Below the pieces are notes generated by a model, which worked only from the letters and a program-made list of their open reading frames with translations, was not told where the DNA came from and did not search any database. Shown here piece by piece: positions 1,431 to 49,200 of a stretch of 58,892 bases of DNA (position 1 is the first letter of the stretch; each line of letters starts with the position of its first letter). The stretch comes from a virus, in the IMG/VR virus record IMGVR_UViG_3300021962_000120, positions 1 to 58,892 of that record; one strand, 5' to 3'. The position numbers and the translations under genes were made by a program.

Positions 1431-1461
1431 CTTTAATTTCTGCACCGCACTCGCACCTTAC

Positions 1462-1617
1462 ATGATGCTGGCCGCACTGTTTATCCTGTCATTCATTGCA
1501 GGATTTTTCACAGTGTGGCTGGCTACACCCGACCCAAAAGACACCATAATTTTCATTGATGACGAAGAGGCGTTTCACCGAGCATGTTACAACGGTATGC
1601 GGAGGGGAATCCAGTGA
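1462..1617 (+). CDS. 51-residue single-span membrane protein
   Basis: The frame opens with MMLAALFILSFIAGFFTVWL, a hydrophobic stretch that fits one membrane helix or an uncleaved signal anchor. A short acidic then basic tail follows (IIFIDDEE and CYNGMRRGIQ). Its stop codon overlaps the GTG start of the HMG-CoA lyase (shared GTGA at 1614-1617), so the two are probably translationally coupled. No family was recognised. The overlap and the hydrophobic helix are direct observations; membrane location is inferred. Confidence 0.6.
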   Translation: MMLAALFILSFIAGFFTVWLATPDPKDTIIFIDDEEAFHRACYNGMRRGIQ

Positions 1618-2510
1618 ATATATCCATCTACGAGGTCGGCCCTCGTGATGGACTACAAGCCCTTAAACAAATTGTGCCAACAGCCACGAAAAAAGAACTC
1701 ATTGCCAGCCTATACGCCGCAGGCTTGCAATCTATAGAAGAGGTGAGTTTTGCTCACCCTCGCCTCATGCCTCAAATGGCTGATGCTGAAGAAGTGTTTG
1801 ACAAAGGCAGTGCGCTGGTCATGAACAAGCGTGGCTACGACCGGGCTGTAGCGGCTGGCGTGCAAAAGTTCAACATTGTATTTTCACCGTGCGAGACTTT
1901 TAACATGAACAACATGGGCAAAACCCGCAGTGAAATCGTGCTCATGTACAAGACCTTCATGGACAAAGTGCCCAAGAAGAATGTGCGGGTGTACATCAGC
2001 ATGGCGTTTGGTTCACCCGACAGCGGAACGCCTTCACTTATCACACTTATTTCGTGCATTCGTGATGCAAAGATGTTTGGCGATACCGTGGTTTTTGCTG
2101 ATACAGTAGGCATTGGTACTGAAAAGGATATAGCAGAATTAGCCGAACTCGCCAAAAATGAAGGGATAAAAGCCGCCTTGCACTTGCACCACAATGGTAG
2201 TGAAGAGCGTGCACTACAATTAGTCCGTGCCGCTCTTATGAATGGGATTCGTGAAATTGACTCAAGCATCGGCGGGCTTGGTGGCTGTCCGTTTGCCAAA
2301 AACAGCGGAGCGAATCTGTCTACCGAAACATTAGTGTCTCATTTGCACGGTTGGGGTTTTACCACGGGTGTGGACGAAATAGCCCTCAAAGCGGCTTTAC
2401 AGATTGCTCAGCAAATTAAACTTAAAGAAACTGGCCATGGAAAAGAGGCATGGACGGGCGAAACATGGTTGGACTTAAATCTCCCAAGTGCTTCTCGGCC
2501 AGCAATTTGA
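1614..2510 (+). CDS. Hydroxymethylglutaryl-CoA lyase (DRE-TIM metallolyase), viral metabolic gene
   Basis: A 298-residue TIM-barrel enzyme that matches HMG-CoA lyase along nearly its full length. That enzyme splits HMG-CoA into acetoacetate and acetyl-CoA in leucine and ketone metabolism. Numbered from GTG 1614, the signature EVGPRDGLQ gives R11 and D12, E42 fits the third DRE residue, H190 and H192 are the metal histidines, C225 lies in GGLGGCP, and N234 is nine residues later, as in the human enzyme. The one notable change is H-L-H-H-N-G where most relatives have H-x-H-D-T. GTG 1614 is preferred over ATG 1584 because GGAGG sits at 1601-1605 and the start overlaps the previous stop. The last 89 bases overlap the minus-strand gene. 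A related lyase of the same family is the main alternative. Confidence 0.88.
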   Translation: MNISIYEVGPRDGLQALKQIVPTATKKELIASLYAAGLQSIEEVSFAHPRLMPQMADAEEVFDKGSALVMNKRGYDRAVAAGVQKFNIVFSPCETFNMNNMGKTRSEIVLMYKTFMDKVPKKNVRVYISMAFGSPDSGTPSLITLISCIRDAKMFGDTVVFADTVGIGTEKDIAELAELAKNEGIKAALHLHHNGSEERALQLVRAALMNGIREIDSSIGGLGGCPFAKNSGANLSTETLVSHLHGWGFTTGVDEIALKAALQIAQQIKLKETGHGKEAWTGETWLDLNLPSASRPAI

Positions 2511-4074
2511 CTACATGCTCCATATCGGGGTGAATGTTTTCAATAAGCGTACCTTCGTTAGTGTCGGTCATTTTGTGCGCTCGGTCAAGAGTGGTAAGGT
2601 CATTTCGCAGTGCTTCAGTGATTTGATGTGGCAACTGCAACTCGCCTTTGAGCATACGCCAAGCCAAATCCATCGGGAAACTTTTCTTAAAGTGCCCCCG
2701 TTTAAGCAATTGCAAATAAATAGCCTGCAACAATACGCTTAATTTTTTAGGGTCGGTAATGATACTACCTTCAAAGGCAGGCATACCAAAAATAGAAGTA
2801 AAATTAGCCGCTATTGCTTTACCTTCTTCAGTATCAAGAAACTTAGTGTGTTCCATTGCATTTACTAAGTTTGAAACTTCATTTTTATGCCTCTTTGCTT
2901 CTTCCGCCGCCGCTTTGTTGGCCGCCCTTGTTTCAGCGGCTTTTCTGTTACGCTCATCACGCTCTTCTTGCGCTGTTTGATTGATTCCGTCCTGCACTGC
3001 TTTTTGATTCTGCTCATCTTTTTTTGCTGTTGCTTCCAATCGGCGTTTTTCACGCTCTTCACGCTCTTGCTGTAGTTTTTGTTGTGTAAATGCTAACATG
3101 TCATCTTTACGATTAAGGTTCCTTTGCATAAACGAATGCGGTAATACAGTGACGGCTCCTTCTTTTTCTTTTCTTTTATTTGCCTCTAAGGTGCTTCTTA
3201 ACGATGGTTCACTAAATGCATCTTGTAGTACGGGAGTATATTCTTGCAAAGTTTTACTTTGCCAGCCATCCTTTTTTCTTTCAAACAAGTTAGGGACAAT
3301 AGCACGCACTTTTCTGTTTTCTCTCCAATCGGGTAAATCGCTAAAATTAACAAAAGAGCCAACCGCATTTAACATTTGATGAGCAGGAATGTTGTACATA
3401 CCGGGAAACTTCTTTTGGTCGCTATGTTCTTGGTCATACATGAAATCAGCAGGATGGCGTGCATCAATCCACCTACCTTGCTCATCCTCGTATTCATTTT
3501 TCTCATTGGGCGTTAGTCCTTCCACCATTCCAGCACGGATTTTTCCATGGTGTTGTTCTCCAAAATAATTTTGTCGTTGCATATTTTCAATGGCTTGGTC
3601 AATAATGCGTTGGCGTGCTTGTGCGTATTCGGGGGTTTGATATTGAGAAGTAAAGTACATGTCTTTTAACAACCGCCACGACATGTCCATGGCTTCTCCC
3701 GTAGCGATTTGTGAGCCAGCCTTGGCTTTCTCGGCCATTTGCATGTTTTGGTCGGCCATGCGTTGTTGAGATTCCCGATTGGCTTGGGCGTAGGCCGCAC
3801 CAGCATCAGCCGCCGCCTTGCCTCGCTCTTTTATTTTATCAGTGAATGATTGTTGATTGTTAGCCTCGGTGATGTTTTCACCACCAGTAAGAGCATCACC
3901 CACCTTACCGCCTGTTTTTGCACCTAAAACGGCACCAGCAATACCACCGAGAACCGTGCCAACACCCGGAACAATACTTCCAAGAGCCGCACCACTGGCC
4001 GCACCACTGGCCGCACCACCTACAGTTCCAACAGCCTGTCCAATGTCACCTTTGACAAGGACACGCCTGCTCAT
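2422..4074 (-). CDS. Glycine-zipper and coiled-coil protein with two helical tags
   Basis: A 550-residue protein read on the minus strand. It starts MSRRVLVKGD and continues with a Gly/Ala-rich stretch (about residues 10-60: SGAALGSIVPGVGTVLGGIA) typical of glycine zippers that enter membranes. A long charged Glu/Lys/Arg/Gln coiled-coil region (about 325-405) follows. It carries the recurring helical motif twice, as AMDMSWRLLKD (DNA about 3652-3700) and PMDLAWRMLKG (DNA about 2643-2690). The shape recalls phage internal or ejection proteins that insert into membranes, but no family match is certain. Its start is 51 bp from the divergent gene at 4126 and they share a promoter. Its C-terminal end overlaps the HMG-CoA lyase gene. 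Confidence 0.8.
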   Translation of the reverse strand: MSRRVLVKGDIGQAVGTVGGAASGAASGAALGSIVPGVGTVLGGIAGAVLGAKTGGKVGDALTGGENITEANNQQSFTDKIKERGKAAADAGAAYAQANRESQQRMADQNMQMAEKAKAGSQIATGEAMDMSWRLLKDMYFTSQYQTPEYAQARQRIIDQAIENMQRQNYFGEQHHGKIRAGMVEGLTPNEKNEYEDEQGRWIDARHPADFMYDQEHSDQKKFPGMYNIPAHQMLNAVGSFVNFSDLPDWRENRKVRAIVPNLFERKKDGWQSKTLQEYTPVLQDAFSEPSLRSTLEANKRKEKEGAVTVLPHSFMQRNLNRKDDMLAFTQQKLQQEREEREKRRLEATAKKDEQNQKAVQDGINQTAQEERDERNRKAAETRAANKAAAEEAKRHKNEVSNLVNAMEHTKFLDTEEGKAIAANFTSIFGMPAFEGSIITDPKKLSVLLQAIYLQLLKRGHFKKSFPMDLAWRMLKGELQLPHQITEALRNDLTTLDRAHKMTDTNEGTLIENIHPDMEHVVKLLAEKHLGDLSPTMFRPSMPLFHGQFL

Positions 4075-4125: not shown

Positions 4126-5451
4126 ATGGCGAGGGTGCTGATAAGCAAAGCAACCCTCGCTGATTTTGGTGTGCCTCGTCAAGAAGTAGCCGTGCGTCAA
4201 CCCATGCCCTCGGCTGAGGAAATGGAGCGCATAGTTCGTGAAAGTGATATTGCTCTAACACCAAAAGAGTTTGCTACAAAAGTGCCGCTTATTGAGCGAA
4301 ACACAGAAGGTTTTGATGAGCGTTTTGGAGATACAGCCAAAAGATTTGACGAACAAATGGGACTGGAAGGTGCTGTAGCGCAAGGACTTATTGCAAGAGA
4401 ACATCCTCAAGTTGCAGATTTAGACCCAAGACTTACACCCTTTCTTCGTGATTACTACAGCCGTCAATCCACTTTGCCCGAACACTTTTGGAATTACCAC
4501 ACTGAAGGGCCATATTATGATGAAGAAGGAAACATTTTACCCGGCCAAGTACCTCCTGTTGATGCTGTAAAACTAATGAGTGAAAGTGACATACGCTATT
4601 TAGGTGGAAGAGAAGGTGTTGGGTTAAAACCCGTACCGTTTAGTCAATCTAATCGTAATTGGGAAATGAATGAAATACCATTAAAATATCGTGTGCCTGT
4701 AGAAAATGCTGGATTTGTAGGAGGTCTTACAGAACAAGACATTCTTAGAAATCAAGCCGGTAATGTATCGGGTAAGTTGCCAAAAGGGGTTGTTGGTATT
4801 CGGGGTTTTGGCCGTCCACAAGATAAGGCTTTTGCTCGTAGTGTTGGCAGAGAAGGTAGAGAAGCAATATATACTGCACCTATACCACCCGAAAGACTTG
4901 TAGGTGTTATGCCAAGAACACGCATGACAGAAAATGAATTAAAAGGGGGTGAACTAAGGCATTTATACGCTCCCGAAAAACCATTTGAACAAAAATTACA
5001 TGAACTTGTTTCGGATGGTATAATCTCACCTATCAATGCTATGTATGCTATGATAACCCATAGAGCACAACAAAAACACTCACCCGAACATTTATTTGAA
5101 AATCCAAACCCGTTATTGGAACTTTACCCATCACCTTCCTCGTTAATAGATACCGATGCTGGCGAAGAAAAAATGCAAAAAGTGGGAGGATGGAGAACAC
5201 CTTTTGCTACACCAAGTAAAACAGCACGGAGACAAGTTGAAAGCAATTTTAGTGATGCTTTACCACTTGCATGGCAACAAGGCGTTTTTGGTCTTGAAAA
5301 TCCATTACTTACAGAAGCCGAAAAAGAAGCGTACTTAAAAGACATTGAAAATATGAGATACATGGATGATGACACAACTCCAATAAGAGACATTGACCCT
5401 AAAAAATTGAGAAGTCTTTATCCAAAACAAGCAGGGGTGAGGTTCGGATGA
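4126..5451 (+). CDS. Unknown protein, possible weak ADP-ribosyltransferase-like segment
   Basis: A 441-residue protein. ATG 4126 (MARVLISKATL) is chosen over the upstream in-frame GTG at 4075 because the TATA box is about 25 bp before it. The N-terminus resembles those of other proteins here (MSRRVLVKGD, MSKKVLIRKQ). Around residues 225-260 it reads VVGIRGFGRP, then EAIYTAPIPPERLVGVMP. An acidic strand followed by IPPE..xGV is reminiscent of the end of some ADP-ribosyltransferase-like folds, but this is a faint resemblance and no catalytic triad was identified. It ends with ATGA overlapping the next gene, so the two are co-translated. I give it no function. Confidence 0.75.
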   Translation: MARVLISKATLADFGVPRQEVAVRQPMPSAEEMERIVRESDIALTPKEFATKVPLIERNTEGFDERFGDTAKRFDEQMGLEGAVAQGLIAREHPQVADLDPRLTPFLRDYYSRQSTLPEHFWNYHTEGPYYDEEGNILPGQVPPVDAVKLMSESDIRYLGGREGVGLKPVPFSQSNRNWEMNEIPLKYRVPVENAGFVGGLTEQDILRNQAGNVSGKLPKGVVGIRGFGRPQDKAFARSVGREGREAIYTAPIPPERLVGVMPRTRMTENELKGGELRHLYAPEKPFEQKLHELVSDGIISPINAMYAMITHRAQQKHSPEHLFENPNPLLELYPSPSSLIDTDAGEEKMQKVGGWRTPFATPSKTARRQVESNFSDALPLAWQQGVFGLENPLLTEAEKEAYLKDIENMRYMDDDTTPIRDIDPKKLRSLYPKQAGVRFG

Positions 5452-8060
5452 AGCCCGTGCAAGTCAAAAAGGCGTATTTGCCCACCATTGATGAGGCACG
5501 GGGTGTTTCGCTTGACGACATCCAAGCCTTGCGGTGGATTCCGGGTAAATATCGCTCTTCGTTTAGCCAAGCAACCCCGTTTAGAACTCCGGGTAATATC
5601 AGATGGGAAAAGGATAAAGAAGAGGATTTGGGAGAAGCCTATCGGCCAATACCGGGTTTTAGAGAAGGCACAAACTTTCAAGGTTATTTTCTAAATCCTG
5701 CCACCGCTTACGGTGCTTTGCAAGGGGATGTGGGATGGAATACCCTTGCAAATAGGGCAGTAAACCCAATTCTTCTTGGAATAACGGACACTCCTCATTT
5801 TTGGCGTACACCAAAACAAGGAGCATCAATGCAAGGTTATGCTGGTGAGGGTTATCGTTATGGAACGCTACCAAAAGCAAGTTTCGTTGAGATACCGCAC
5901 GAAACTTCTCCTATTGATATGCAACGAGCCATGATGGATTTTCAACGAAATCGTGCGTTACAAGGAATGAGTTCGGATGAGGCTTGGGACACAATGGCTG
6001 AGAAAAACCCCGATGAGTATGATGTGGCGGGTTTGTTTCCGAGAAAAATTACTGAAAACATATGGGGGCAACCAGCACAAATGGCTGGCAACCCTGTCGT
6101 TGATTTTAATTGGGAAAGATACAAAGTCGCCAGCGAACCAATGGACATCGCCTTCCAACTGCTCAAACAAAGCCTTGAACTGCAACCACCAATGACTCAA
6201 GGTGTTGAAGAAGAGCAATCAGTTGAAGAAGAAATGCCTATGCAGGAAGTTTCAATGGGTGATTACGAAACCCCCTGTGAATGTGCTGAACGAATACGAA
6301 CCCATGTAACTTCCATAATCCGAGAAGGACTTGAAAGGCTAAAGAGTAATCCACAAGACATATATCGCAGTGGTTGGGAAGTTTGGGAAGTTCCCTCTTT
6401 AATAGAAAGTAATGAAAGCAACTTAGCAGAATTAGAACAGATGAGTTGTGAAGAAATCCTACAATGGGCCGAAGGTCACTCAGTATATTCCAAAATGTGT
6501 AATAGTGGTGGGATAAGCGAAGCCGACCAAATGAAATATGCAGGTGAACCAATGGACATCGCTATGCGGTTGCTCAAAGAAGACCCGCTTCATCTTCAAT
6601 CAAGCAATACTCTCGCTCGTCGTGCAAGAGAAGAATTAGAAACTGATAAGATGGGTGAAAACAGTCCGGCTTATCAAGAAATGATGGAGCGAATGATGGA
6701 AATGTACGAACCACAAGACAATACCATTCCTCTTGAAGACAACCTTGACCAATATGCACAAGAAACAGGTAAAAATCCGTGGCGTATGTTATCCGGTCGT
6801 GAAATGCCAAATAAACACGGCGGTACAGCAAAAGTACATCTTGACCCACTAACTCCAATTCATCCTCAACAATTTTATGATTGGCAAGCAAAGAACGCCA
6901 GCGAACCCATGGAAATCGCCTTGCAACTGCTCAAAGAGGATATTGATTATGAGGAAGATGATTACATTTATCCCCATGAGCAAATATGGAATGATGAAGC
7001 AGATGAACAACTAATTGATACCACCAACTCTTTGTGGGACTATGTTAAAAACATGAGTAATGATGATAAAATAGAATGGCTAAGGCTTCAAGGTAACCCT
7101 TTCATGCAAAGAGGTATGCAACGAATGAATGGTGATTTTCCGAAACTTAGTCAGCAAGATATTGACGATTCAATTTGGGAGATGATGTTTGACGCTTGGC
7201 AAGACTCACAAATGGAAATGCCCGACGGAATTGATTTTGATTTAGGTGGTAATCGTAAAATTGAACAGACTCGTGACCCAACAAGGGCATACGCAGTACA
7301 CCCCAAGTATTGGAAAAAATTAGCCAGCGAACCAATGGACATCGCCTTCCAACTGCTCAAAGAGCGTGTAAGTCCCGAAGCCAAGCGGCACAAGTTGGAG
7401 TACGACAAGAAGTACGAGTCCACGCCGGAGCGGGTGAAGTACCGGGAGGAGTTGAACCGTGAACGCCGTCGCCGTGGTATCTACGGTAGCCACGACCATA
7501 AGGACATCAGCCACACCGAGGGCGGCAAATTGACCCTTGAAGGCGAGCATGAAAACAGGGCACGGCACTTCAAAGACAAGGGAACTCTTCGGGATTTGAA
7601 CAAAGCACAACAAACTTTACCTTCATACGACAAATCTCAAGTTGAAAGTTTGGTTAAACCCGACCAATCCACCATGTATATTTCATCAAGACCGGGAAGA
7701 GAAAAAGTCACGGCAGAAGAGCAAAGTGAAAAACATGATGCGTTGTTAGCGGCTATAGCGGAATTAAACAAAAACAAACAAATGAACATCATGACGGGTA
7801 CTGGTGAAGGTGAATGGGGTAAGGAACATTCAATTGCTATTCAAAATTATCCGCCCGAAATGAAAGAAAAATTGTACGCTTTAGCGAGACAATTTGGACA
7901 GGATGCAGTGGCCGAATCAAATGCAAGGGAAAAAGGAATGCGTTTTGTGAATCCAGCAACTCGTGAAGATACCTTTTCTTTTGGAGGTCGTGAAATACAA
8001 GAAGAACCTCGTTACAGCACCAATTTCCCGACAGGACAAAAAATTACTTTTACTGAGTAA
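5448..8060 (+). CDS. Beads-on-a-string protein with four helical tags and C-terminal HNH-like segment
   Basis: An 870-residue protein built of unrelated segments joined by four near-identical linkers: ASEPMDIAFQLLKQ, AGEPMDIAMRLLKE, ASEPMEIALQLLKE and ASEPMDIAFQLLKE (DNA 6129-6170, 6540-6581, 6897-6938, 7323-7364). The N-terminal 225 residues are of unknown fold. The segments between linkers are acidic, helical and AT-rich. The last, after residue 640, switches to GC-rich codons and reads like small phage HNH-type proteins (EYDKKYESTPERVKYREE, then HDHKDISH and an ENRARHF ending). No complete HNH set is proven. Overlap ATGA with the previous gene shows coupling. It could be a polyprotein cut by the prohead protease or one multidomain virion protein; both are inference. 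Confidence 0.8.
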   Translation: MKPVQVKKAYLPTIDEARGVSLDDIQALRWIPGKYRSSFSQATPFRTPGNIRWEKDKEEDLGEAYRPIPGFREGTNFQGYFLNPATAYGALQGDVGWNTLANRAVNPILLGITDTPHFWRTPKQGASMQGYAGEGYRYGTLPKASFVEIPHETSPIDMQRAMMDFQRNRALQGMSSDEAWDTMAEKNPDEYDVAGLFPRKITENIWGQPAQMAGNPVVDFNWERYKVASEPMDIAFQLLKQSLELQPPMTQGVEEEQSVEEEMPMQEVSMGDYETPCECAERIRTHVTSIIREGLERLKSNPQDIYRSGWEVWEVPSLIESNESNLAELEQMSCEEILQWAEGHSVYSKMCNSGGISEADQMKYAGEPMDIAMRLLKEDPLHLQSSNTLARRAREELETDKMGENSPAYQEMMERMMEMYEPQDNTIPLEDNLDQYAQETGKNPWRMLSGREMPNKHGGTAKVHLDPLTPIHPQQFYDWQAKNASEPMEIALQLLKEDIDYEEDDYIYPHEQIWNDEADEQLIDTTNSLWDYVKNMSNDDKIEWLRLQGNPFMQRGMQRMNGDFPKLSQQDIDDSIWEMMFDAWQDSQMEMPDGIDFDLGGNRKIEQTRDPTRAYAVHPKYWKKLASEPMDIAFQLLKERVSPEAKRHKLEYDKKYESTPERVKYREELNRERRRRGIYGSHDHKDISHTEGGKLTLEGEHENRARHFKDKGTLRDLNKAQQTLPSYDKSQVESLVKPDQSTMYISSRPGREKVTAEEQSEKHDALLAAIAELNKNKQMNIMTGTGEGEWGKEHSIAIQNYPPEMKEKLYALARQFGQDAVAESNAREKGMRFVNPATREDTFSFGGREIQEEPRYSTNFPTGQKITFTE

Positions 8061-16850: not shown

Positions 16851-17875
<1,025 letters not shown>

Positions 17876-24239: not shown

Positions 24240-24805
24240 AACCCCGCCCAGTTGAAAATGGATATTTAGCAAAAGCCATTGAACTTGAACAACGCCTTGA
24301 GCGAATTGAAAAGGCCAAGTGTGATTGCGGCAAAGAGCCTTGTGAGTGCAAAGACTGTCCAAAGTGCGGTTCTAAAATGAACAAGATGGGTTGCATGAAG
24401 ATGGGTTGCGGCGGCAAAATGGAAAAAGCCGAACCGGGATTCAAGCCCGAAAAAATCACGGACATCAATCCTTCTTTCCACGCCGAGTCGGGTGGACAAA
24501 CCAAGAGTGGTTACTTCACCACCAACGGGCGCACCATTGAGACTGAGGATGCGCCAAAGAAAAAGAAGCCAAAGGAAGCAACCAACATGGAGCAACTTGG
24601 CTCTCGCATGAACCCTCACGAGGGTAGCGGCGTTGAGCGTGAAGAAGGTGAGTCGCCCGTTAAGAAAATGAATCCAAGAGCGGCTATGCGAGAAAGTGGC
24701 GCACCAGTGATGTGTGGGCTTTGCGGCGGCACTCAGCGAACAGGGTGCTTGCTCCACGAGGGTGGTATGGATTTGCACGCTTGCCCACAGTTTAAGCCGC
24801 TATGA
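24236..24805 (+). CDS. Cys-rich small protein
   Basis: A 189-residue protein beginning with a helical stretch (AIELEQRLERIEKA) and a dense Cys region (CDCGKEPCECKDCPKCG), which could bind two metal ions. A polar, probably disordered middle and a second cluster (CGLCGGTQRTGC, later HACPQF) follow. The start has a strong AAAGGAGG just upstream and overlaps the previous stop by 4 bases. No family was recognised. Confidence 0.65.
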   Translation: MKPRPVENGYLAKAIELEQRLERIEKAKCDCGKEPCECKDCPKCGSKMNKMGCMKMGCGGKMEKAEPGFKPEKITDINPSFHAESGGQTKSGYFTTNGRTIETEDAPKKKKPKEATNMEQLGSRMNPHEGSGVEREEGESPVKKMNPRAAMRESGAPVMCGLCGGTQRTGCLLHEGGMDLHACPQFKPL

Positions 24806-27800
24806 TTGGCGGTGAGGACATGGATGACCACTTCTATGTGTGTAGCAACGAGTTGCTAAAATCATTGAACGATGGTCTTGACCTTCGCACTGCGGCGGCT
24901 GAATACATTCTTGCGTTTGAAAACCTTCACACGCTTCCCACTGAGCCGCTGTTCAAGTCGTTGAAAGCAACGGCTGAAATGGTGCTTAAAGCAGAAGAAG
25001 AAAGCAGTGTTGATGTGGAAAAGGACTACCATTTTCCCGAAGGTATCGGTTACATGTTTGCTTTGCAACACACGCACGGCGAGCCGACCAACCATGTATG
25101 GAAAGACGGCCTTCAATCCCCTACTAATCCTAAAAACCGACATGCGGTGTGGCCGTATTATCAACCCAAAGACGGTGCTCATCCATACCAACGCCACCAT
25201 TTTCCCTTCCATGAAGTGAACCACCCTCTTCTTCGTACCAACGCCGTGACGGGCACACCTGCTTATGTGGAGATGCTACGCAATTGGGCATTAGGTGGCC
25301 ACAGTGAAAAAGAAAAGGAAATGGAAAAACAATTCTTTGATACGCTTGGTAAGAAACATCCGTTGGTTGGTGGGTTTCAACAAGGAGAAGGAAAAAAGGT
25401 CAATATCATTGGTGATACCCGACCAAACGGTACACTTCTTCATCATCAACATGACCTGTACGAGCGAGATTATTTCCGATGGTTAAAGCAAAACAATAAA
25501 CGGCAAGAGGAGTTGTTGGCTGAAGGTATGACCAATGCTGAAATGAAAGAGCAACTTCGCAAAGAACACTTTGCTGACCGAGCCGCTATGTGGGAGGCTG
25601 ATGAAGATAACAACATGGTGCTGGATGACAAATACGAGGAACACCCAACCCGACTTGGACATCTCGGCTACATGCTTGGCCTTGAGTGGTTCAGTCCCGA
25701 AGAACGCAGTGCTATTGTCAATCACATTGACGAAAAAGGGCTTGACAAGCATGATTTGATTACCCTGCCTAACGGTGAAAAGTTTCCTTCTGCTCGCCTT
25801 AAGTACAACGCTCTTATGCGAATGACACCCGAAATGAACTGGGCTATTCGCCCTATGACCATGATGGGTCGTAACGCTCATTACCATCAAGAAAACAACG
25901 ATAACGATTACACCAAAGGTGAAGAAGGTATGTTCCTTCAACAAGCGTTGGGTCGTCTTTCTCACGAGCCTTTAGATGAGTTTGATAATAAGTCAATTGC
26001 CAGCCACATTCAAGAAGCCATACGGGACAATTACGGGGCTGATAAGCGAATGAAGTATTTGCCTCGCCTTAACATTCACAAAGAACCAATGAAAGAAATG
26101 TCGTATGATGAATTGTTTGATGCTTCCCGTATTCATTTCAAGGGTAAAGAGCGAGGACTGGAAAAGGTAAGAATGTCCAAAGATGACTTGTTATATTTGG
26201 CTGGCTATGACCCTAAAACACGAGAGTTGCTTACTGACCATCCATTGTACGGTAAGTTAGAGGAACCAATTGTAGATGCTGGTATGATTGATTACATAGA
26301 AGCGGTTGCAAAAACACAATCTTCATTGCATCGTCAAATCAAAGACATTCGTAATCATCGTGCTTTTTTCACCTCACCACACGGCCCACATCCCGATGAA
26401 GAAAAACCCAAATACTGGCAAGAACATGAAAATGGATTTACATATGGGCCGGGTCATTTTTGGGCTTCGCCATTTCAAAGTACAGGTGGTGCTGGAACTA
26501 ATCTTGCTACATACCACGAAATCTTGAACGCTACACACGCTAACGAAGAAGGTGTATCGCCGTTTAATGAATTAACAGAAAGCCGAGACAATTACATTCA
26601 ACCAAGTGAACTAAACAGAACGCTTGCTCATCATTTCATGCCTCTACGATTGCAAAGCATAGGGGAAGCAACACAAGATGGAAAGTATGTCAAGTTTAAT
26701 TACAACTCAAGTGCAGAACACTTGCAAAACCTGTTGTCACCGTTTGGTACATCAAAGAAACACCCAAACACAGAAGGGGCCACCAATAAAAACAACTACA
26801 CTGAACACAAATCATCTCTCAATCCACAATACGAATACAACATAAGACATCTTTCGGAAAACGAGTTAAAAAATAAGTTTGTAGGTAAGTTTTTGCGAAG
26901 CATGGCGTTTCCACACACAGTGGTACCTACACAGCATGTTGGGGGCTACACGGCCTACGGAGCATCACCATCCGATTCTCGTAGTCATGTTAATGCCATT
27001 CTTGCACATAACATGGAAACGCTTGGTGGGCGCATGTTTCACCCCAATACACCAGCAAAAAAATCATTTTCCAGTGCTGAGGATTGGATGCGTGGCGATG
27101 AGTCGGCCAGTGGTGGAACGACTCGTGAAGAGTTCAAAGATTTCATGCGTTGGGGTGGACAAAGCGGTTTTTCTTTTGATTCAATGAAAAACCGTGTTCT
27201 TGATAACCCTTCAATGAATCATGCAATGATGGCAATTACCAACGCATCAAAGATTCTTGGAACACAAAATCCAAAGGCTATTTTGGACTACCTGCACAAC
27301 GAAGAAAATCACGATGAGTTAAACAAGATTTTGTTAGACAGGCAACTTGGAGAGTTTGATAAAACAAAATTAAACGATGGGATTGACACTGTGATTCAAA
27401 ACATGAATCAAGAGATTCAAACAGCCAAGAAAAATCAAAAGACAAAAACCACAATAGCGGCTGGTGAGGCTGACGCTGTAGCACGCTTTTTGCAATTTGG
27501 TGGTATGTTGCCTGCATCTCAAAAAGAAGATGAACTGCTTGAAGAAGTGGAAATGCTCAATGAACGGTTAATGGAAGAGCAAGTTGCTGGTACTCCGTTT
27601 GAAGAACTTCTTCCAATGAGAGAACAATTACGACAAGCAACTCAACGATTAGAACAATTACAGGCGCAAGCGGCTATCAAAAAACCAACAACACATTGGG
27701 AAATAGACCAAAGGCGACTTGAGCAACTTCACAAAGGACATCGCCAAACTGTTGCACAAGTAGCACGGGACATTATTCTTCCAAAATATCTTGAGCATGA

Positions 27801-30519
27801 CCCAAATGCGTTTGACCCCAACGACCCTGCTACTTTCATTGCAAACCACCATCAATTGATGCGTGACGCTCAACGATACATTGCGTCTGTTCCTCATTCA
27901 GTACACGGTTTAACTACTCTTAATTATGGTAGTGATAAATCGGTAAAAGCCACCTCACAAGGTGTGCAAAATCCATTCCACAAAACACTTGGCAAACATC
28001 TATCTACTGATGGTAAAATGATTGACAGCAACATGTCTGTTGATGAAGTGCTAAAGATTCTTGGTGTTGAAAAGACTCCTGTAGCAAAAGAAAAGGCAAC
28101 AGAACTCATCAACTTATCTTCAAAAATGAATACGCCGTTGTTTGCATCCACGGTGAAAGATATACTGCTCAGTGGTAAAATCCCTAACATTGACGGCATC
28201 AATCTCAAGCAGTTTAGCGATGAAGAATTGATGAACAAGCCCGAAGAAGAACTAAACGATGAAGAACGCTTCTTCCGTCATGCACGAGAAAAGGGTTATC
28301 ATCAAGCATTGAATCATTTTCAACAAGAAGCAAGCGGGCAAAGTGAATGGAAAGGACATCATTCTCACGCTATTCCTCGTTACATGAATATGATGCTTAA
28401 CCCTGCACAGTTTGAAATGTCTATGCTTTCGGCTGGTATTGGGAGCATTAGCGGTGATATTCACGACTCAAAAGGAACTGGAAGTGCTACAAAGGCCCGC
28501 AGTACAAGCACCACAAAAAACAATCTTGACACCATCGTGCATTTTGACCCTCGTGCATTGGATGATGAAGAGGGTATTTTTACAGCAGGTGAAGATATTT
28601 CCGAAACCGCAGGCTTTGGTCAACGACCTGTAGGAGCGGCGAGTCCTGTTAATACGGCGATTACCGATAACTTTGACAGCGGTGCATGGCATCATGGGTA
28701 TGAATTGACTCCCACTCTTGGTGCTGAGTTTGACAGTGAAGGCAACATCCATGTTGGTAGCCATGTAGGGCCGGGTCTGTATCATAGTGTACCCGAAGAA
28801 CTCACACAAGTGGTTCATGGAAAAGATGTGTCGGACTTTGTGTACGCTAATGCTCCTCCACCGTTGTACCCCAATAACCCCCATCAAAGCATGAATATGG
28901 AAACAGGAGAAGTGGCCAGTGAAAACATGACTACAATAGCAACCAGCGAAATGACCGAACTGATTACCTCCCTGCTTGACCCCGATGTGTTATTGTCCAA
29001 GAGTGACGATGCAAAGTGGAGTCCAGCAGTTCGCCCCATGCACCGCATTTTTGATTTGGCCGACCTTGAACACCTTCGTGGTTTCAGCGGGTCATGGGTT
29101 GTAAGCAAATGGTATGATGGACAGCGTATCATCATTGTTCGCAGTGGTGATGAAATCACAGCGTATGATGAAAATGGGAGAAAGAAAGGATTACGCAAGG
29201 CTACCAAAGAGGCTCTTGACAAAATGAGTGACAAGAATTACACACTTGACGGTATTCTTGGTGAAGATGAATTAAACATTATTGACATTATCAACTACGA
29301 TGATACCAATGTGGGAGAAATGCAACTGTTTGAACGCTTGAAAATCCTTCGCTCGCAATTTGATAGTCAAGAGCATGTTATTGTTCCCGGCCCACATGAT
29401 ACTCGCATGACCGATGATGAAGGACTGGTTGACGCTGTGAAGAACCTCAAAAATGACCATGATAACATCTTGTTGCGTGATAACAAGTCCACTTACATGC
29501 GTGGAGAGCGTAGGCATCCAAAATGGATTGTGTACCGTGACAGCCGAGACTTCAATTTCATCGTTCTTGACCGAAGAGGCACTGGGCCGTTCACTTATCA
29601 ATTGGGTGCTGGCCCTATCCTTGAAATTGAAGGGCTTGGAAACCGAGCAGTGGAATACAAAGGGGAACATTACATGGATGTAGGCACAGCCCACAATCAA
29701 AGCAAAGTGTTCAAAGTTGGTGACATTGTTCGTGCATCCATCACGGGTATTTCCAAAAAGAACCGTAGCAACCGCCCTGTGTATAATGTACAGGTCAAAG
29801 AATTAGAAGGTGAAGGAGAGGGTGAGGGTGCCGCCAGTACCGAATCACTTGACCTTATGACAAAATCATTTGCACCAATTCTTGTACCTCACGATATTCA
29901 AATCCACGAGAGTCATATTGAAATCCTGTTAAACGAAGTTGATACAGTAATGTACAAGATGGAAGAAATTGGCGATGTTTGGTATGTTCACTCTCCTAAG
30001 AGTGCAATGAGCGGTATTACCAAAACCGATTATCCTGTAGTGCTGGCTGAAAGTCTCATGCCTTTTTGGTCGGCAGTGGCTCCGTTAATGGTAAAAGGGT
30101 ATGTGGCAAAGAAGGTAGAAGTAGATATGCCAAAGAAGCCAACGGAAGAAGAAATGGAAGAAGGCAGTGCGGGCATCATTGATGATGATGATGAAAACCG
30201 CTTGCTTAAGCCCAACCAAACGAAGAAGGCTTTGGAACTGATTACACGGGCTTTGGACAAAATCGCCAAAGAAAAGATGACTTGGACAGGGCCAAAGGGG
30301 TTGGGTATTGATGTCGGTACGCCGCAAGAATCACCTCGTGGCCCAACTCAATTGCGTGATGAGGCCACTCTTCCAGATTTTGATGGTGAAAAGAAAAACA
30401 CCGATGAAAGAAAAGAAAAGAAAAAAGAGCGACTGAATCACATTCAAGTCCAAACAGATGAAGGTGAAAATCTCTCTATAGAATACGATAATGACCAACC
30501 TTTGCTATCTCGGCAATAG
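24802..30519 (+). CDS. 1905-residue virion-type protein with ligase-like C-terminal domain
   Basis: A very long protein. Residues 1-1400 are mostly helical, rich in His, Asn, Asp and Gln, with no recognised domain apart from a coiled coil near 910-960. Residues about 1405-1665 resemble an ATP-dependent DNA ligase/nucleotidyltransferase core plus OB fold: RPMHRIFDLADLEHLRGFSG, then SKWYDGQR (1435-1442), LDGILGEDEL, NILLRDNKSTYMRGERR and WIVYR. The catalytic lysines expected in motifs I (KxDG), IV (EGxxxK) and V (WxKxK) are missing or shifted: W1437 occupies the nucleophile site with K1436 beside it, and R1559 replaces the motif IV lysine. The domain may therefore be inactive or rewired. The C-terminus is acidic then basic. 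It ends 39 bp before the protease start. Confidence 0.72.
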   Translation: MIGGEDMDDHFYVCSNELLKSLNDGLDLRTAAAEYILAFENLHTLPTEPLFKSLKATAEMVLKAEEESSVDVEKDYHFPEGIGYMFALQHTHGEPTNHVWKDGLQSPTNPKNRHAVWPYYQPKDGAHPYQRHHFPFHEVNHPLLRTNAVTGTPAYVEMLRNWALGGHSEKEKEMEKQFFDTLGKKHPLVGGFQQGEGKKVNIIGDTRPNGTLLHHQHDLYERDYFRWLKQNNKRQEELLAEGMTNAEMKEQLRKEHFADRAAMWEADEDNNMVLDDKYEEHPTRLGHLGYMLGLEWFSPEERSAIVNHIDEKGLDKHDLITLPNGEKFPSARLKYNALMRMTPEMNWAIRPMTMMGRNAHYHQENNDNDYTKGEEGMFLQQALGRLSHEPLDEFDNKSIASHIQEAIRDNYGADKRMKYLPRLNIHKEPMKEMSYDELFDASRIHFKGKERGLEKVRMSKDDLLYLAGYDPKTRELLTDHPLYGKLEEPIVDAGMIDYIEAVAKTQSSLHRQIKDIRNHRAFFTSPHGPHPDEEKPKYWQEHENGFTYGPGHFWASPFQSTGGAGTNLATYHEILNATHANEEGVSPFNELTESRDNYIQPSELNRTLAHHFMPLRLQSIGEATQDGKYVKFNYNSSAEHLQNLLSPFGTSKKHPNTEGATNKNNYTEHKSSLNPQYEYNIRHLSENELKNKFVGKFLRSMAFPHTVVPTQHVGGYTAYGASPSDSRSHVNAILAHNMETLGGRMFHPNTPAKKSFSSAEDWMRGDESASGGTTREEFKDFMRWGGQSGFSFDSMKNRVLDNPSMNHAMMAITNASKILGTQNPKAILDYLHNEENHDELNKILLDRQLGEFDKTKLNDGIDTVIQNMNQEIQTAKKNQKTKTTIAAGEADAVARFLQFGGMLPASQKEDELLEEVEMLNERLMEEQVAGTPFEELLPMREQLRQATQRLEQLQAQAAIKKPTTHWEIDQRRLEQLHKGHRQTVAQVARDIILPKYLEHDPNAFDPNDPATFIANHHQLMRDAQRYIASVPHSVHGLTTLNYGSDKSVKATSQGVQNPFHKTLGKHLSTDGKMIDSNMSVDEVLKILGVEKTPVAKEKATELINLSSKMNTPLFASTVKDILLSGKIPNIDGINLKQFSDEELMNKPEEELNDEERFFRHAREKGYHQALNHFQQEASGQSEWKGHHSHAIPRYMNMMLNPAQFEMSMLSAGIGSISGDIHDSKGTGSATKARSTSTTKNNLDTIVHFDPRALDDEEGIFTAGEDISETAGFGQRPVGAASPVNTAITDNFDSGAWHHGYELTPTLGAEFDSEGNIHVGSHVGPGLYHSVPEELTQVVHGKDVSDFVYANAPPPLYPNNPHQSMNMETGEVASENMTTIATSEMTELITSLLDPDVLLSKSDDAKWSPAVRPMHRIFDLADLEHLRGFSGSWVVSKWYDGQRIIIVRSGDEITAYDENGRKKGLRKATKEALDKMSDKNYTLDGILGEDELNIIDIINYDDTNVGEMQLFERLKILRSQFDSQEHVIVPGPHDTRMTDDEGLVDAVKNLKNDHDNILLRDNKSTYMRGERRHPKWIVYRDSRDFNFIVLDRRGTGPFTYQLGAGPILEIEGLGNRAVEYKGEHYMDVGTAHNQSKVFKVGDIVRASITGISKKNRSNRPVYNVQVKELEGEGEGEGAASTESLDLMTKSFAPILVPHDIQIHESHIEILLNEVDTVMYKMEEIGDVWYVHSPKSAMSGITKTDYPVVLAESLMPFWSAVAPLMVKGYVAKKVEVDMPKKPTEEEMEEGSAGIIDDDDENRLLKPNQTKKALELITRALDKIAKEKMTWTGPKGLGIDVGTPQESPRGPTQLRDEATLPDFDGEKKNTDERKEKKKERLNHIQVQTDEGENLSIEYDNDQPLLSRQ

Positions 30520-31943: not shown

Positions 31944-33044
31944 ATGGCAAGAGATTACATCCGAAACATTACTGACATGGAACGCTACTACTATGGCGCA
32001 GGCAACGCAATGGGTTACTCCTACTCCGGTAGCGAGTTGCTCAAGGCTGACGCTCCAATGCTATCCACGACCGCTGGTACTTACCAAGCGATTTATGGAC
32101 GCAAAGTTTGGAGCCAGTTGAACCAAGAGTTCAACGCCTTCTCCATCCTTCCAAAGCGACCTTGGGAACGAAGCGGCTGGCGTGTTATCACGGCTCGCCC
32201 CTCCTTCACTGTTGGTGGCGGTGTGGCTGAGAACGCTACGCTCCCCGACACCACCAAGCCAACCTTCCAGCACATCGCCGCCAAGCCAAAGACTGTCGTG
32301 CACACCTTTGACATGAGCGAAACAGCCATGTTCTTGTCCGACAAGGACGATGGACTGGGCGACATCCGTGCAATCTTGAAGGAAGAAATGGGTAAGCACC
32401 ACGCTGAGCACATCAACAAAATGCTGACCACCGACAAGGCTACCGCCGCTGGTAACAACTTTGAGTCCCTTGACCGTGTTACTGTTGGTGCCTCCGCCTC
32501 CACTGATGAGGACATGTACTCCATTGACCGCAGTGCAAACTCGTGGTCGTTGGCTGAGCACAACCAAAACAGTGGTACCGACCGCAACTTGTCCCTTGAC
32601 CAATTGGACGACTTGTTCCAAAAGACTTGGACTCGTGGTGGTAACCCCAAGGTCATCCTTACGGGGTACGACACGCTCATGCGCCTTCAGCAACTCCTCC
32701 AATCGCAACAGCGATTCATGGAAGAGAAGCGTGTTACGCCTACTTACAACGGTGTGAAAGGTGTTCCCGGTATTGAGGCTGGTTTCATCGTGGCTACCTA
32801 CAACGGTGTTCCAATCATCCCCTCAAAGGATGTTCAAACCGACACTTTGAGCCGCATGTACTTCCTTGACACGGACTACCTGTATTTCAGCACTGCAATT
32901 CCAACCCAATACTTTGAGAGCGGTATTGAAACTGGCGACCCATTCGCCATCAACCGCCTCGGCCAAGAGGGAATGTACCGTACCATGGGTGAACTATGGA
33001 CGACTTTCTTCGGCGGTCATGGTTCCATCCGTGACCTCAAGTGA
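31944..33044 (+). CDS. Major capsid protein, HK97 fold
   Basis: A 366-residue capsid protein directly after the protease-scaffold gene. The N-terminal arm is followed by a domain with SILPKRPWERSGWRVITARP, a long spine-helix region (DIRAILKEEMGKHHAEHINK), and the typical C-terminal pattern of a beta-rich P-domain with FIVATYNGVPIIPSKDV and MYFLDTDYLYF. It assembles into the icosahedral head. The start has GAGGTGA at spacing of about 6. Codon use is richer in C-ending codons than in the accessory genes, as expected for high expression. Fold assignment is by gene order and sequence style, not by alignment. Confidence 0.88.
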   Translation: MARDYIRNITDMERYYYGAGNAMGYSYSGSELLKADAPMLSTTAGTYQAIYGRKVWSQLNQEFNAFSILPKRPWERSGWRVITARPSFTVGGGVAENATLPDTTKPTFQHIAAKPKTVVHTFDMSETAMFLSDKDDGLGDIRAILKEEMGKHHAEHINKMLTTDKATAAGNNFESLDRVTVGASASTDEDMYSIDRSANSWSLAEHNQNSGTDRNLSLDQLDDLFQKTWTRGGNPKVILTGYDTLMRLQQLLQSQQRFMEEKRVTPTYNGVKGVPGIEAGFIVATYNGVPIIPSKDVQTDTLSRMYFLDTDYLYFSTAIPTQYFESGIETGDPFAINRLGQEGMYRTMGELWTTFFGGHGSIRDLK

Positions 33045-43238: not shown

Positions 43239-46200
43239 ATGGTTGCAATCGGTCGCAGTAGTCACGCCTTCTTTTTTGACGGCGTGAGCGATTCGGTGAT
43301 TATTCCTCAAGGCCGCTTCACCAAGACGGGTGTAAAGGATGCTGACGGCAACAAACTGATGACCAAGACCCTACAGGGTAGCGGCGACATCGTTTCAATA
43401 AACAATAAAACAATTGCTGATTTCGTCATTGAGGCATGGGTTGTGCCCGATTGTGGGGGTGTAATTGCCCACCGAGAAGGGCAGTTTACCCTTGAAATGG
43501 GAACGGTGGACACTCCCGGCCCCGCTGTGTTTAGCGTTAGTGTGGAGTCCATCGCTGGCCCATCAGTGTTCCGCTTAGCCACAGCCTATGATGCCAGTAC
43601 CCGATGGGATGGCATCGTGTACCCACAACAGGAACACGGTGGTATTCACGATTCGTACAACCGTTACGACACAGGCAATTATGGCGAGGCCACCAACCTC
43701 AACTTCAACAACCGACCGCTGTACCATGTTGTGGCTGGTATCACCAAGAACCGTGTGTTCTTGGCTGTCAACGGCGAGATTGTCTCCGAGCAAGACATTC
43801 CACCCGAAACTCGTCTTGCCCGCTCCACTGAGCATGTGTACCTCGGTGGTAAAGGTGGTGAGTTTCGTGGTGCGATTGAGGCCATCCACTTCTCAAATGA
43901 GTTTGACGAGAACATGCTTCAGCCATCTATGGCGGTGAAGGGACAAACCACCTCGGCTTTGTTCCGCTTTGAAGAGCCGATAGATGTCGTGCAAGAGTCT
44001 TACGAGTTCACCGCCTATACCGTGACCGATGCCAGCACCACGACGCTGACGATGGCGGCGGCTGACGCACAGGCTCTCATCGCTCGTTTGACGGGTAAAG
44101 CATACGATTCATCCTCACCAACTACGACCTTTACATCCACACCGTATAGTATGGGTAATTACAAGGTCGTGGATTACTACACCAACAGTGGCACACCCAC
44201 CACCATTAGCGTACCGCACACCCCTTACAACCTGCTGATTAACCCCGGTGCTATCAACCGCAATACACAGAAGCCTAACCAATCCCCACCCGAAAGGGTG
44301 CGGTTGGAAAGCATCAACGGAAACACAGGCGTTGTCACCTTTAACAGTATTCACATTGACTTCATCAACGGTACGGGCGGCTTGCGAGGTGCCTTGCACA
44401 CCCGAACAACCGATGTGGACAACTACTTCGTGGTCGTTGGGGCTGACTCGTTGATTGACAACGGTACGGGCAAGCCTTACCAGCCACCTCACTACGGAAC
44501 GCAAATCTTTGACAAGACGGGGCAGATGATTCTTGATGAAAGCGATATTGCAAACCACGGTATGGTGTACTCGTCACAAATGGCTACCGACACGGCTACT
44601 AACGCCTACGCCGTGAACTGGCCTGCTGACCTTGACACGCTGTTTCAAGTGGGCCACAGCGGGCGACACACCTTCTCACACATCACGGGCCATGAGTATA
44701 TGCGCCGCTACCCTAAACCAACCGACCTCATCATTGACCAGCAGGTTGACGGCTCGGCTGACATCGTACAAATGGCGTATGACTCTAACACTCGTAACAT
44801 TGACGAGATGTTTGCGATGAACTCGCTAATTGATTTTTACAGCGAAACGCTGGAAGCACCCATCGCCCGCATTGAGAACTCGTCCAGCGTGGCCACCATC
44901 ACGCATAACGGTATGCCAGTGAGCAAGCGTGAACTCATTGCTATTGGCGGTAGCGGATTCAAGTACGCTCCGTTTATGCTTAAAGGCCCAGTGCCCGAAG
45001 TAGGAAGCATTGACGAGAACAACCGTCTGTATCACCTTACTCCCGAAACCGAGAGCCGTGTGGCTCTCTTGCATGTTCCCGACCTTAAGACCAGCCACAA
45101 CCTCGCTCCGTTTGTTGAGGTGCATTACAACGCCATAGACCTCACAGGAGCGAGCATGGGCGAATCCACACCAATGCTCATGGTAGAAAAGACCGTACCA
45201 GCGGGTTCGTTTGACTTGGGTGGCGGCACACGGGTATTGGATGTCATTACCGCTGACCTTGCTAACACCACACTCTATTCACCCGGCGGTGTGATTTACC
45301 TGTCAAACGCCATCAGTGGCTATGGCTCGCTCATGCAGGAGTCGCACACACTGATTGGTGACAACACAGGCGGGCAAGACAGCGATACAGAACTGGATTA
45401 CAGCCGCACGCCCGCCCTGTACACCCCCCCAAACGATGTTAATGCTGAACCAGCCAGCCCACCGTTTGCTGTTGCACGCTCGCACAACAGCAGTACGCAT
45501 CATTCGGTGTACCATCGCCTTGCTATTGAAGCCATGTCGTCAAGTCAAAGTGACACCATCACCGATGAGGGTGCTGGCAAGCGCACACGCCAGCCCACGA
45601 CAGATAAGACAGGCACGGGTGTGTTTGACCTCGGCCCGACCACACATTCAAGTCGTGTGTTTGAGATGTTTAACATCATTGACAATGTGATAATTACTGA
45701 TGAAGCGGGTATCATTGCGAAGATTTTCGTCCAGCCGTCTGTTAAATCACGAGTAAATCAATTGTCGCTGGTGCGTAGCCTACAAAGCGGGGATGTACCC
45801 AACATCGCCAGCATCATGTTCCTCATGAGCCGCTGTCGGGTGCGTGGGGTGTCCAAGCAAGAAAGCCCCGAATCCAACATGTCCACAGTGGTTGTCACGG
45901 CCACGGGCATTGCTGACTCTTTCGTGAATGAGAATGTCTCGGCTGTTGGCAGTGGGTCGCCCGACTCGCATGTAGTAAAGGAGATTGAACCCAACGCTCC
46001 TGTTGTTACGGTTACGCTTGGCGGGCCGGGGCAGGGAGGTGTGAACACCAAGCCCACCTACGACCCAAGCCCACTCATGCGACTTCCCGGCTCCACTCGT
46101 CGCAGTTGTGCAGTGCAGGCACGGGTGGTGGACACCAATACCTCAATTCTTTCAATGAGTGTTGCTCCACTTAACAACGGCTCACCCGACATTAAATCAT

Positions 46201-49200
46201 GGGGAACTATTTGTTTTCCCAAAACTGGCCGTATCTACCTCGCTGATGGTGCCAGTGCTGAATACTTTCTAAAAAATGGGGCTGGATTCCAATTTAACGA
46301 AACAAATGCCATTCAAAATCGTAAGTTCCTTGATGCCGCTGGTGTTGCTTATGCGACCTTCCATGATTGGTGTAACGCTACAGGAGTTATTGAACCAACA
46401 GCCAGCACAGGTACCTATACGACATCGGTGTATGTGTTTAATGACGGTGATTTTGATAATGATTCGCTGGCACAGGATGGTAGCACTGTCAATGACCGCT
46501 TGTTCCAATCCCTTGATACAGTTACGCACGATTATCAGTTGGGTACGCAGTATGCCAGTACCCGTGCAATGGTGGAGATTCCTGTGTTCCCACAGCAGTT
46601 CTTTGACCATACTGAACTCGGCATTTTCCCCGGCCCCGATAACAGCATGAAACTGCATATTGATGCGACCTACACAGCCCACACATGGAATCCTACACCT
46701 GTAGGTCGTCGTGCTGATGACATCGGTGTGGCTGATAAGAGTGCTAATTCAGCCTATTCGTACACTATCAATAACCAAGATTACATTGAATCGGCTACAA
46801 TTTTGCGTGTTGAAAATGCTACTGCAAGCCATACACACCCAAGCACTGGTGCCACAACCCACACTGACCACTTTCACATTTATGTGTCTCATCCTAAAAT
46901 GTTCCCCAATGGGAGTAACACGGATGCGTTTGGTAATCTCAAAGGCATTAACCGTTTGCGTCGTGTTTTCCTTACCAGCGGTGAGTGGGCTGTGTACGAT
47001 AACGACCCCGCAACTGATGGGTACCTGTCCATACCATCCAACGCTACTGGTGGTTATCATGACGGCTATTCGCAGACATTTTTCCAAAATGCCATTGTGG
47101 GAGCGAAATTGCATATCGGTGCAGGTTTCCGTAACGAAACGCTGATTCCTGTTGCTTCCGACCTTGAACTTCCTTCTTCGGATATTGAAGGGCGGTCACC
47201 GTATTACTACGATGCGGCAAACATGAAAACGCAAGGTGGCAACCTTGATTACGGCCTGCGCCAGTATGTGTCGGCTGTTGAGTTCAAGGCTGGCCCGCTG
47301 GCTAACCCCCACGCCCCTCGCACAATTACCAAGTGTGCTACAACTACCATCACTCAAGCAATTGCCGCACCAAGTGGAAACAGCATTATTCTCACACTGG
47401 AAAATGCTTCGCTGTTCCCCGACCCACCGTTTAACCGTAACTCTTCAAACGCTATTGATATTGAAGAGGGTGACCTGTTGTATGTTGGTGAAATTATGCT
47501 TGATACGCCCGTTGAAGTGGCATATTTCAGCAAAAACAACGGCCCAATATCGGAAAACTCCATTCTTGTTGAACCACTAAATGGTGTGTCCATAACGCTT
47601 GGTGACATCATCGGTGTTGAGTTTCGGCTAACAAAGGCTGGACACAACATGGGTATTCTTGATGACCCTGCAAACATCACAGTAGCAGAAGCAAGCACAA
47701 GTCTTACAAAAACGGATGAGATATGGGAAGTGAAAGTAGCGGCGACTTCGGGAAGTACGACAAGTATTGAGATAGCACCTGCAACTCTTACAAATCGCTT
47801 CGCTCATGCTAACACAGTGGGTTTCAACGCACGCAAGGGCGATAAGTTGTACATCTATTCGGGAGGTTCATACAATTATGTTGGCGAAGTAAGTGCAGTA
47901 GTTTCCGACTTAACGCATCCTACAGCATCAAACACTGTTGTAACACTTACCGCAAACAACGCCACTGCGTTAAGTGTTGGTGATGACCTTTACATCAGTT
48001 CAGCCACCGTTATTCAAGAAGATTTTGATGCTATCCTCAATCGCAGTTGGTTGTACCCATATGCACAGGGTGGGCTACGCAATGGTGACACCGTATGGAT
48101 GAACATGACGGTGAACAACCCGCACGCTGTGGAGGGTTTGTTCGCAAAAAGCCGTGGTGTATTTAATGAAAACACCGTATGGAAAGGCTTCAACGGCGGG
48201 CGGGGAACCCTTGACGACAACCCAAGAGACTCCATTCCGCTTGAAAACTTCTTGATTGGCAACTCGTGTCTTGAAACGGCACAAAACTTTGCTCAACATG
48301 TAAACAAGACGGTGGAGATGAACTACGAGGCTATGGGACTGGATGCCAGTCAAGCCCCCACTGTTGCCTACATTGACCCGTATCTATCCACCGATGGAAA
48401 CGCTCGTGTGTTGTTGTTTGATGTAGCCCACGACCGTGAGTTCATTGCTTTCCATGACATTCACATGCAGGTGCAATCCAGTGCGGCTACGCCTACTATT
48501 GGTTACACCCGCAACATCGCTCACGAAACAGGAACCATCAAACTTGACAAGTTCCTTATCAGCACCAACGGTGGTGCGCCGCACTACTTTACCACACAGA
48601 TTGATGTAGCCAATGGTTTCCCTTCACAAAACAAGTATGTTCGTGCTACGCAACAATCAAAGTTCATTGAAAGTGCATACGCTCACAATGTTCCAAACAC
48701 CGTCACACATGACTTGTTGGGTAAAACCACGGCTGGTAGTGATGAAAAATACACAATTGGCGACCCTACAAGTACAGCAAACTCAGCACGGAGAGGAAAG
48801 GGACACGGGCACTTCGTTCACACTGGTTTATTTCACGAGCAAACAAGTAATACGCACACTGTAGGAGATAGCAACCTCCCTCGTGTTCAACCTGCGGTGG
48901 CTTCAGTCTATTATGCCTCACAAGCACATAAGTTGATTCGCAAAGAGAATGATGGCAACGCTTTGTTAAAACGATTGAAAAAGCACCGTGCCGACCAAGA
49001 CCCCAATTTGTTTTCATTAACTGACCCAAGCACCTTGTTTGACACACCCGATGGTACTCGTGTGATTTCGGCTTTCCTTTGTTTGAAAGGCAAACGAAAC
49101 TCCACTCTTGAATTAGCAAACCATGAAGAGTCACGCTTGCAACATCTCAAACACTGGACTCAAATGGATTTCGTGCGCCGTATGACTCTTGACTTGGGTG

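Follow-up and report, generated by a model that had tools for sequence, protein, structure and literature searches.

The window analysed here, 58,892 bases long, covers the whole of one virus record in IMG/VR. Near its beginning, at positions 1614–2510 of the plus strand, lies a gene of 298 codons for an HMG-CoA lyase-like DRE-TIM metallolyase, a description that draws on profile, fold, tree and residue evidence. The gene starts with GTG, which we prefer to an alternative in-frame ATG at 1584 because both a Shine-Dalgarno-like GGAGG (1601–1605, plus strand) and the alignment of its relatives support the GTG. The GGAGG lies within the last codons of a predicted single-pass membrane microprotein of 51 amino acids (1462–1617, plus strand), which is conserved directly upstream of the lyase, and the four bases GTGA at 1614–1617 are common to the stop codon of the microprotein (TGA, 1615–1617) and the start codon of the lyase (GTG, 1614–1616). 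A promoter-like stretch, TTTAATTTCTGCACCGCACT (1432–1451, plus strand), is found about 30 bases 5' of the microprotein start. The 3' end of the lyase gene is overlapped by an antisense open reading frame of 550 codons (2422–4074, minus strand), which has relatives in three of ten records and whose product weakly resembles lysin or tape-measure segments in its N-terminal part. The overlap takes in the codons for residues 276–298 of the lyase, a segment that is modelled with pLDDT below 50 and is unconserved among the viral sequences.

The virus was assigned from its major capsid protein gene (31944–33044, plus strand). All 11 matches to this protein in the phage collection were archaeal viruses, the best being Haloarcula viruses at 35–37% identity, and the protein is 36.6% identical to that of HVTV-1 and its relatives, an HK97-type kinship with the haloviruses (Druskaviridae). 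It also matches 506 stretches in IMG/VR. Thirty-four records were selected by capsid protein, representing 34 of 80 capsid loci. DNA polymerase B (PolB) was present in 25 of 34 records searched and the Cpn60 chaperonin in 22 of the 25 searched, the window being included in both sets; neither was found in the 58.9-kb window itself, and both are present in most of its longer relatives. Magroviruses have been described as having genomes of 90–110 kb with PolB, a chaperonin and two oppositely transcribed modules, and as related to Druskaviridae (PMC10768690). Because the PolB and chaperonin of its relatives fit this ICTV description, the window most likely derives, as a fragment, from a magrovirus, and the earlier characterization of the virus as archaeal in type agrees with capsid matches solely to archaeal viruses and with the PolB and chaperonin of the relatives. 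Magroviruses are viruses of Poseidoniales archaea, and the virus described here probably infects abundant ocean archaea.

The lyase occurs in 10 of the 34 capsid-selected records, many of which are fragments. It lies about 26–30 kb 5' of the capsid gene in the window and in eight of the ten records, and about 29.5 kb downstream of it in the other two (G023 and G026), so that the gene does not have one fixed position. In the same ten records the identity to the window is 57–75% for the lyase and 85–97% for the capsid protein.

The presence of an HMG-CoA lyase gene in magroviruses is already known. It is a named auxiliary function of Aoguangviridae in the ICTV profile (PMC10768690), and a 2023 survey lists it among magrovirus metabolic genes (PMC10160649), so the earlier description of it as an unusual virus-borne metabolic gene has to be corrected. 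The lyases of Aoguangviridae and other magroviruses are of the same kind, in the same kind of virus, as that of the window, the likeness being one of description rather than alignment. A literature search for further accounts of viral HMG-CoA lyases turned up PMC10160649 alone. The upstream microprotein, the conservation of residues and the phylogeny are not mentioned in PMC10768690 or in the sections of PMC10160649 compared, and no mention of the membrane microprotein was found in the literature compared, Philosof 2017, Prabhu 2025 and Zhou 2023 lying outside that comparison. The usual pairing of microprotein and lyase and the placing of the viral enzymes in one deep clade are what the present analysis adds to the published gene annotation.

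Family, fold and phylogeny of the viral lyase

The open reading frame matches the Pfam HMGL-like family (PF00682) at 2.9e-22 with 79.8 bits, above the cut-off of 29, and the NCBIfam hydroxymethylglutaryl-CoA lyase family (NF004283) at 7e-61. The NF004283 score of 205–206 bits is below the curated cut-off of 246, which is a naming rule rather than a biochemical feature, and this is still the best family by far. The same model picks up every one of the 44 viral members (best E 1e-64); every other family scores 1.6e-10 or worse. The structure of human HMGCL (2cw6) matches the reading frame at 6e-37; a PHROGs family search with the lyase gave no match. Together with the IMG/VR relatives, the Pfam, NCBIfam and 2cw6 matches place the 298-codon gene, found exactly where the earlier note had set it, far beyond chance.

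An AlphaFold2 model of the lyase (pLDDT 89) predicts a TIM-barrel lyase fold that is nearest to solved HMG-CoA lyases. The best 14 chains in a Foldseek search were all HMG-CoA lyases, and in a second fold comparison eight HMG-CoA lyase entries reached Z scores of 35.2–36.9, the next class scoring 27.7. The viral enzyme has the same fold (Z 35–37) as human HMGCL 2cw6 and the bacterial lyases 1ydn, 1ydo, 2ftp and 6nds, is about 30–35% identical to them, and has the catalytic and metal residues and the GGCP loop in common with them. It differs from them in lacking the NE of DGLQNE; in a profile alignment, the loop around residue 63 is also shorter, and two residues are inserted behind the HxH motif.

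A protein scan of IMG/VR with the lyase recovered 55 loci at 56–87% identity, and an alignment scan recovered 79 loci at 55–87%, the two sets overlapping. Cellular matches are more distant, reaching 34% identity at 11 loci on bacterial genome contigs and 37% among the best 40 of 375 matching plasmid records. A tree was built from 56 rows, with the truncated L064 and one neighbouring open reading frame excluded. It contains 28 of the 44 available viral rows, and these form one clade with 100/100 support on the HMG-CoA lyase side, set off by a stem 1.74 changes per column long. Support for the HMG-CoA lyase side is 99/90 once one Bacteroidales paralog is removed, and the viral lyases group apart from the synthase and carboxylase classes, with an outgroup branch of 99/73 in this 56-row set, from which archaeal lyases are absent. 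Grouping with another DRE-TIM class, which the earlier note had named as counter-evidence, was seen neither in this tree of viral and non-archaeal lyases nor in the fold and HMM comparisons. The earlier label of HMG-CoA lyase is in line with the family scores, the fold, the tree position and the conserved active site, and membership of the gene in this class is nearly certain.

The candidate sister of the viral clade is a Bacteroidota/Acidobacteriota-type group, placed weakly (85/29) where long branches meet and in the absence of archaeal lyases from the tree. Lyases of the Bacteroidota/Acidobacteriota/Verrucomicrobiota type (L063, L237, L066 and L067) resemble the viral lyase in that DGLQNE is likewise missing and the residue following HxH is not D. 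The viral lyases form a single deep clade, and no cellular sequence close to it turned up among the data searched, in which archaeal lyases are absent; a literature search for a lyase from Marine Group II or Poseidoniales yielded no usable account.

The phage collection holds three records that match the lyase, at just 29–31% identity, and we dropped these homologues as a sign of viral spread. An Acinetobacter record among them, whose lyase adjoins an acetyl-CoA carboxylase gene and sits among bacterial lyases in the tree, was taken to be probable DNA of a bacterium and not a lineage of viruses. In the tree, the lyase of a fecal clone is placed together with one from a Sphingomonas plasmid.

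Active site, substrate and selection

The earlier note had listed R11, D12, E42, H190, H192, C225 and N234 as the expected residues of a DRE-TIM metallolyase, and all seven are present and do not vary among the 49 distinct viral sequences. Y127 joins them as an eighth invariant residue in all rows of the viral alignment, which holds 44 of these 49. In human HMGCL the critical residues are Arg41, Glu72, Tyr167 and Cys266, and the Mg ligands are Asp42, His233, His235 and Asn275, according to a review (PMC6941031); the former correspond to viral R11, E42, Y127 and C225, and the latter to D12, H190, H192 and N234. An ungapped alignment had pointed to H192 and N194 as metal ligands. This was ruled out by a profile-profile alignment with the human lyase (E 1.3e-67), and H190 and H192 are the better assignment because that alignment pairs them with H233 and H235 and because position 194 is variable.

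The viral enzyme is likely to be active, judging from these residues, and HMG-CoA is its probable main substrate. Its mechanism is most likely the standard metal-assisted one of other HMG-CoA lyases. Substrate binding would fall to a divalent metal coordinated by D12, H190, H192 and N234, R11 would presumably polarise the substrate, and C225, in a glycine-rich loop, would presumably take part in acid-base catalysis, these being the roles of Arg and Cys in the HMG-CoA lyase literature. The products would be acetoacetate and acetyl-CoA.

Substrate preference is made less certain by two changes in the viral enzymes: N46 and E47 (human numbering), two positions of DGLQNE that hardly vary in canonical lyases, are replaced, and the stretch following the HxH motif has been remodelled. 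These changes, the long stem of the viral clade and the score below the curated lyase cut-off would fit a change of substrate within the HMG-CoA lyase class, to a different 3-hydroxy-acyl-CoA or to a tertiary acid, in which case leucine breakdown and the mevalonate pathway would not be its target. The best-scoring cellular relative in a small set points the same way: this gene on a Peribacillus plasmid (L234), annotated as an HMG-CoA lyase, is flanked by 3-isopropylmalate dehydratase and Asp/Glu racemase genes, a context that suggests a different substrate for that relative. We nevertheless consider such a shift unlikely for the viral enzyme, in which the residues listed in PMC6941031 as critical for HMG-CoA cleavage are all invariant and whose nearest structures are all HMG-CoA lyases.

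The patchy occurrence of the gene among the capsid-selected records might also suggest a non-catalytic or decaying passenger. Against this stand the active site, invariant throughout the distinct viral sequences, the lack of an internal stop in any of the 27 lyase matches examined, and dN/dS values of 0.015–0.14 across 19 comparisons of viral lyases, of which the seven involving the window lyase are rough, with dS above 1. These ratios indicate that the viral lyase family is under purifying selection, and a passenger gene is very unlikely.

Weak shared-fold matches are what speaks for a synthase-type DRE-TIM enzyme, and an isopropylmalate, citramalate or homocitrate synthase is extremely improbable and was ruled out, given that the tree, the fold ranking and the HMM scores all point to lyases (the 2-isopropylmalate synthase model gave 24.6 bits, against a cut-off of 517) and that a product of 298 amino acids is too short for the C-terminal regulatory domain of LeuA.

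The upstream microprotein and a possible role for the pair

The microprotein has one hydrophobic stretch, from which its membrane nature was judged by eye, and a conserved E...C..G(M/L)R tail; it is probably a single-pass membrane protein. The conservation of the tail may be due in part to the Shine-Dalgarno sequence contained in it. Pfam and PHROGs searches with the microprotein gave no match. The microprotein clusters at 44 of 81 loci. Among 67 distinct loci, a count that excludes L219 with its truncated start, the microprotein is directly 5' of the lyase in 39, and stop and start codons overlap in 35 of these; L053 has a similar short hydrophobic open reading frame that lies outside this count. 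At several loci free of the microprotein, the lyase start overlaps the 3' end of a long upstream open reading frame.

A strong microprotein match (E 6.5e-18 or better) was found in 17 of 51 records, all 17 of which carry the lyase, and in none of the 24 lyase-free records. Three more records gave weak matches: in G050 the match is immediately 5' of the lyase, in G026 the lyase is present and the match is located elsewhere, and in G021, which has no lyase, it covers 19 residues (E 3.4e-4). Scans with two versions of the microprotein returned nine contigs, each already among the lyase-bearing ones. This co-occurrence is to be read as linkage rather than function: fragments are common among the records, and a locus missing from one would take both adjacent genes with it.

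A box around TTTAATTT, about 26–33 bases before the microprotein start, is kept in 21 aligned loci, and the window holds a single occurrence of the promoter-like box. We infer that it may be an archaeal TATA promoter. One promoter, together with the overlapping stop and start codons, would lead to joint expression of microprotein and lyase. With reasonable confidence, we regard the gene as that of a virus-adapted magrovirus HMG-CoA lyase, for which a single promoter would serve both the lyase and the small membrane protein.

HMG-CoA is the starting material of archaeal membrane lipids. In the infected archaeon, the lyase might deplete the precursor from which mevalonate and lipids are made, or acetyl-CoA might be recovered from HMG-CoA, and the earlier proposal that the virus redirects carbon or lowers HMG-CoA is plausible. 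Neither HMG-CoA reductase (PF00368) nor HMG-CoA synthase (PF08540) was found in any of the 25 records searched for each, several of them fragments. In these 25 records the viral lyase therefore stands without pathway context, and the reading as a pathway cassette was dropped. An active viral lyase would operate where acyl-CoA breakdown and archaeal lipid synthesis branch, in archaea that are abundant in the surface ocean.

A further role for the microprotein could be to tether the lyase at the host membrane, which is a guess. That the two proteins form one functional unit, in which the microprotein tethers or tunes the lyase so that HMG-CoA is destroyed at the site where isoprenoid precursors are made and the virus controls lipid supply, seems to us quite doubtful. 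With the conserved pair, what was no more than an annotation becomes a two-gene module that can be put to the test.

Other reading frames in the window and its relatives

A single open frame, at least 5,218 codons long and continuing past the end of the window, fills positions 43239–58892 (plus strand), which rules out a non-coding or recoded stretch at 43–58.9 kb. Pfam and PHROGs searches with its two halves gave no match; its product is probably a giant tail or adhesin protein. The last 8 kb align at 64% to an open reading frame of 3,329 amino acids located ahead of the lyase in L044.

The hexamer CCTGCT is repeated about 21 times at 17546–17666, within a 342-amino-acid open reading frame just 5' of the terminase gene. 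The 870-amino-acid product of 5448–8060 (plus strand) weakly matches DUF3293 and an S-adenosylmethionine lyase family in its C-terminal part, a possible anti-restriction domain. Between the portal and head protease genes, a reading frame of 1,905 amino acids (24802–30519, plus strand) weakly matches a domain of ATP-dependent DNA ligases, its E of 2.9e-4 falling short of the cut-off. Among the relatives, PolB matches are in pieces in G044, G045, G054 and G055, as from a split gene or an inserted element; in G055 the pieces are about 1.5 kb apart, with one in-frame stop counted.
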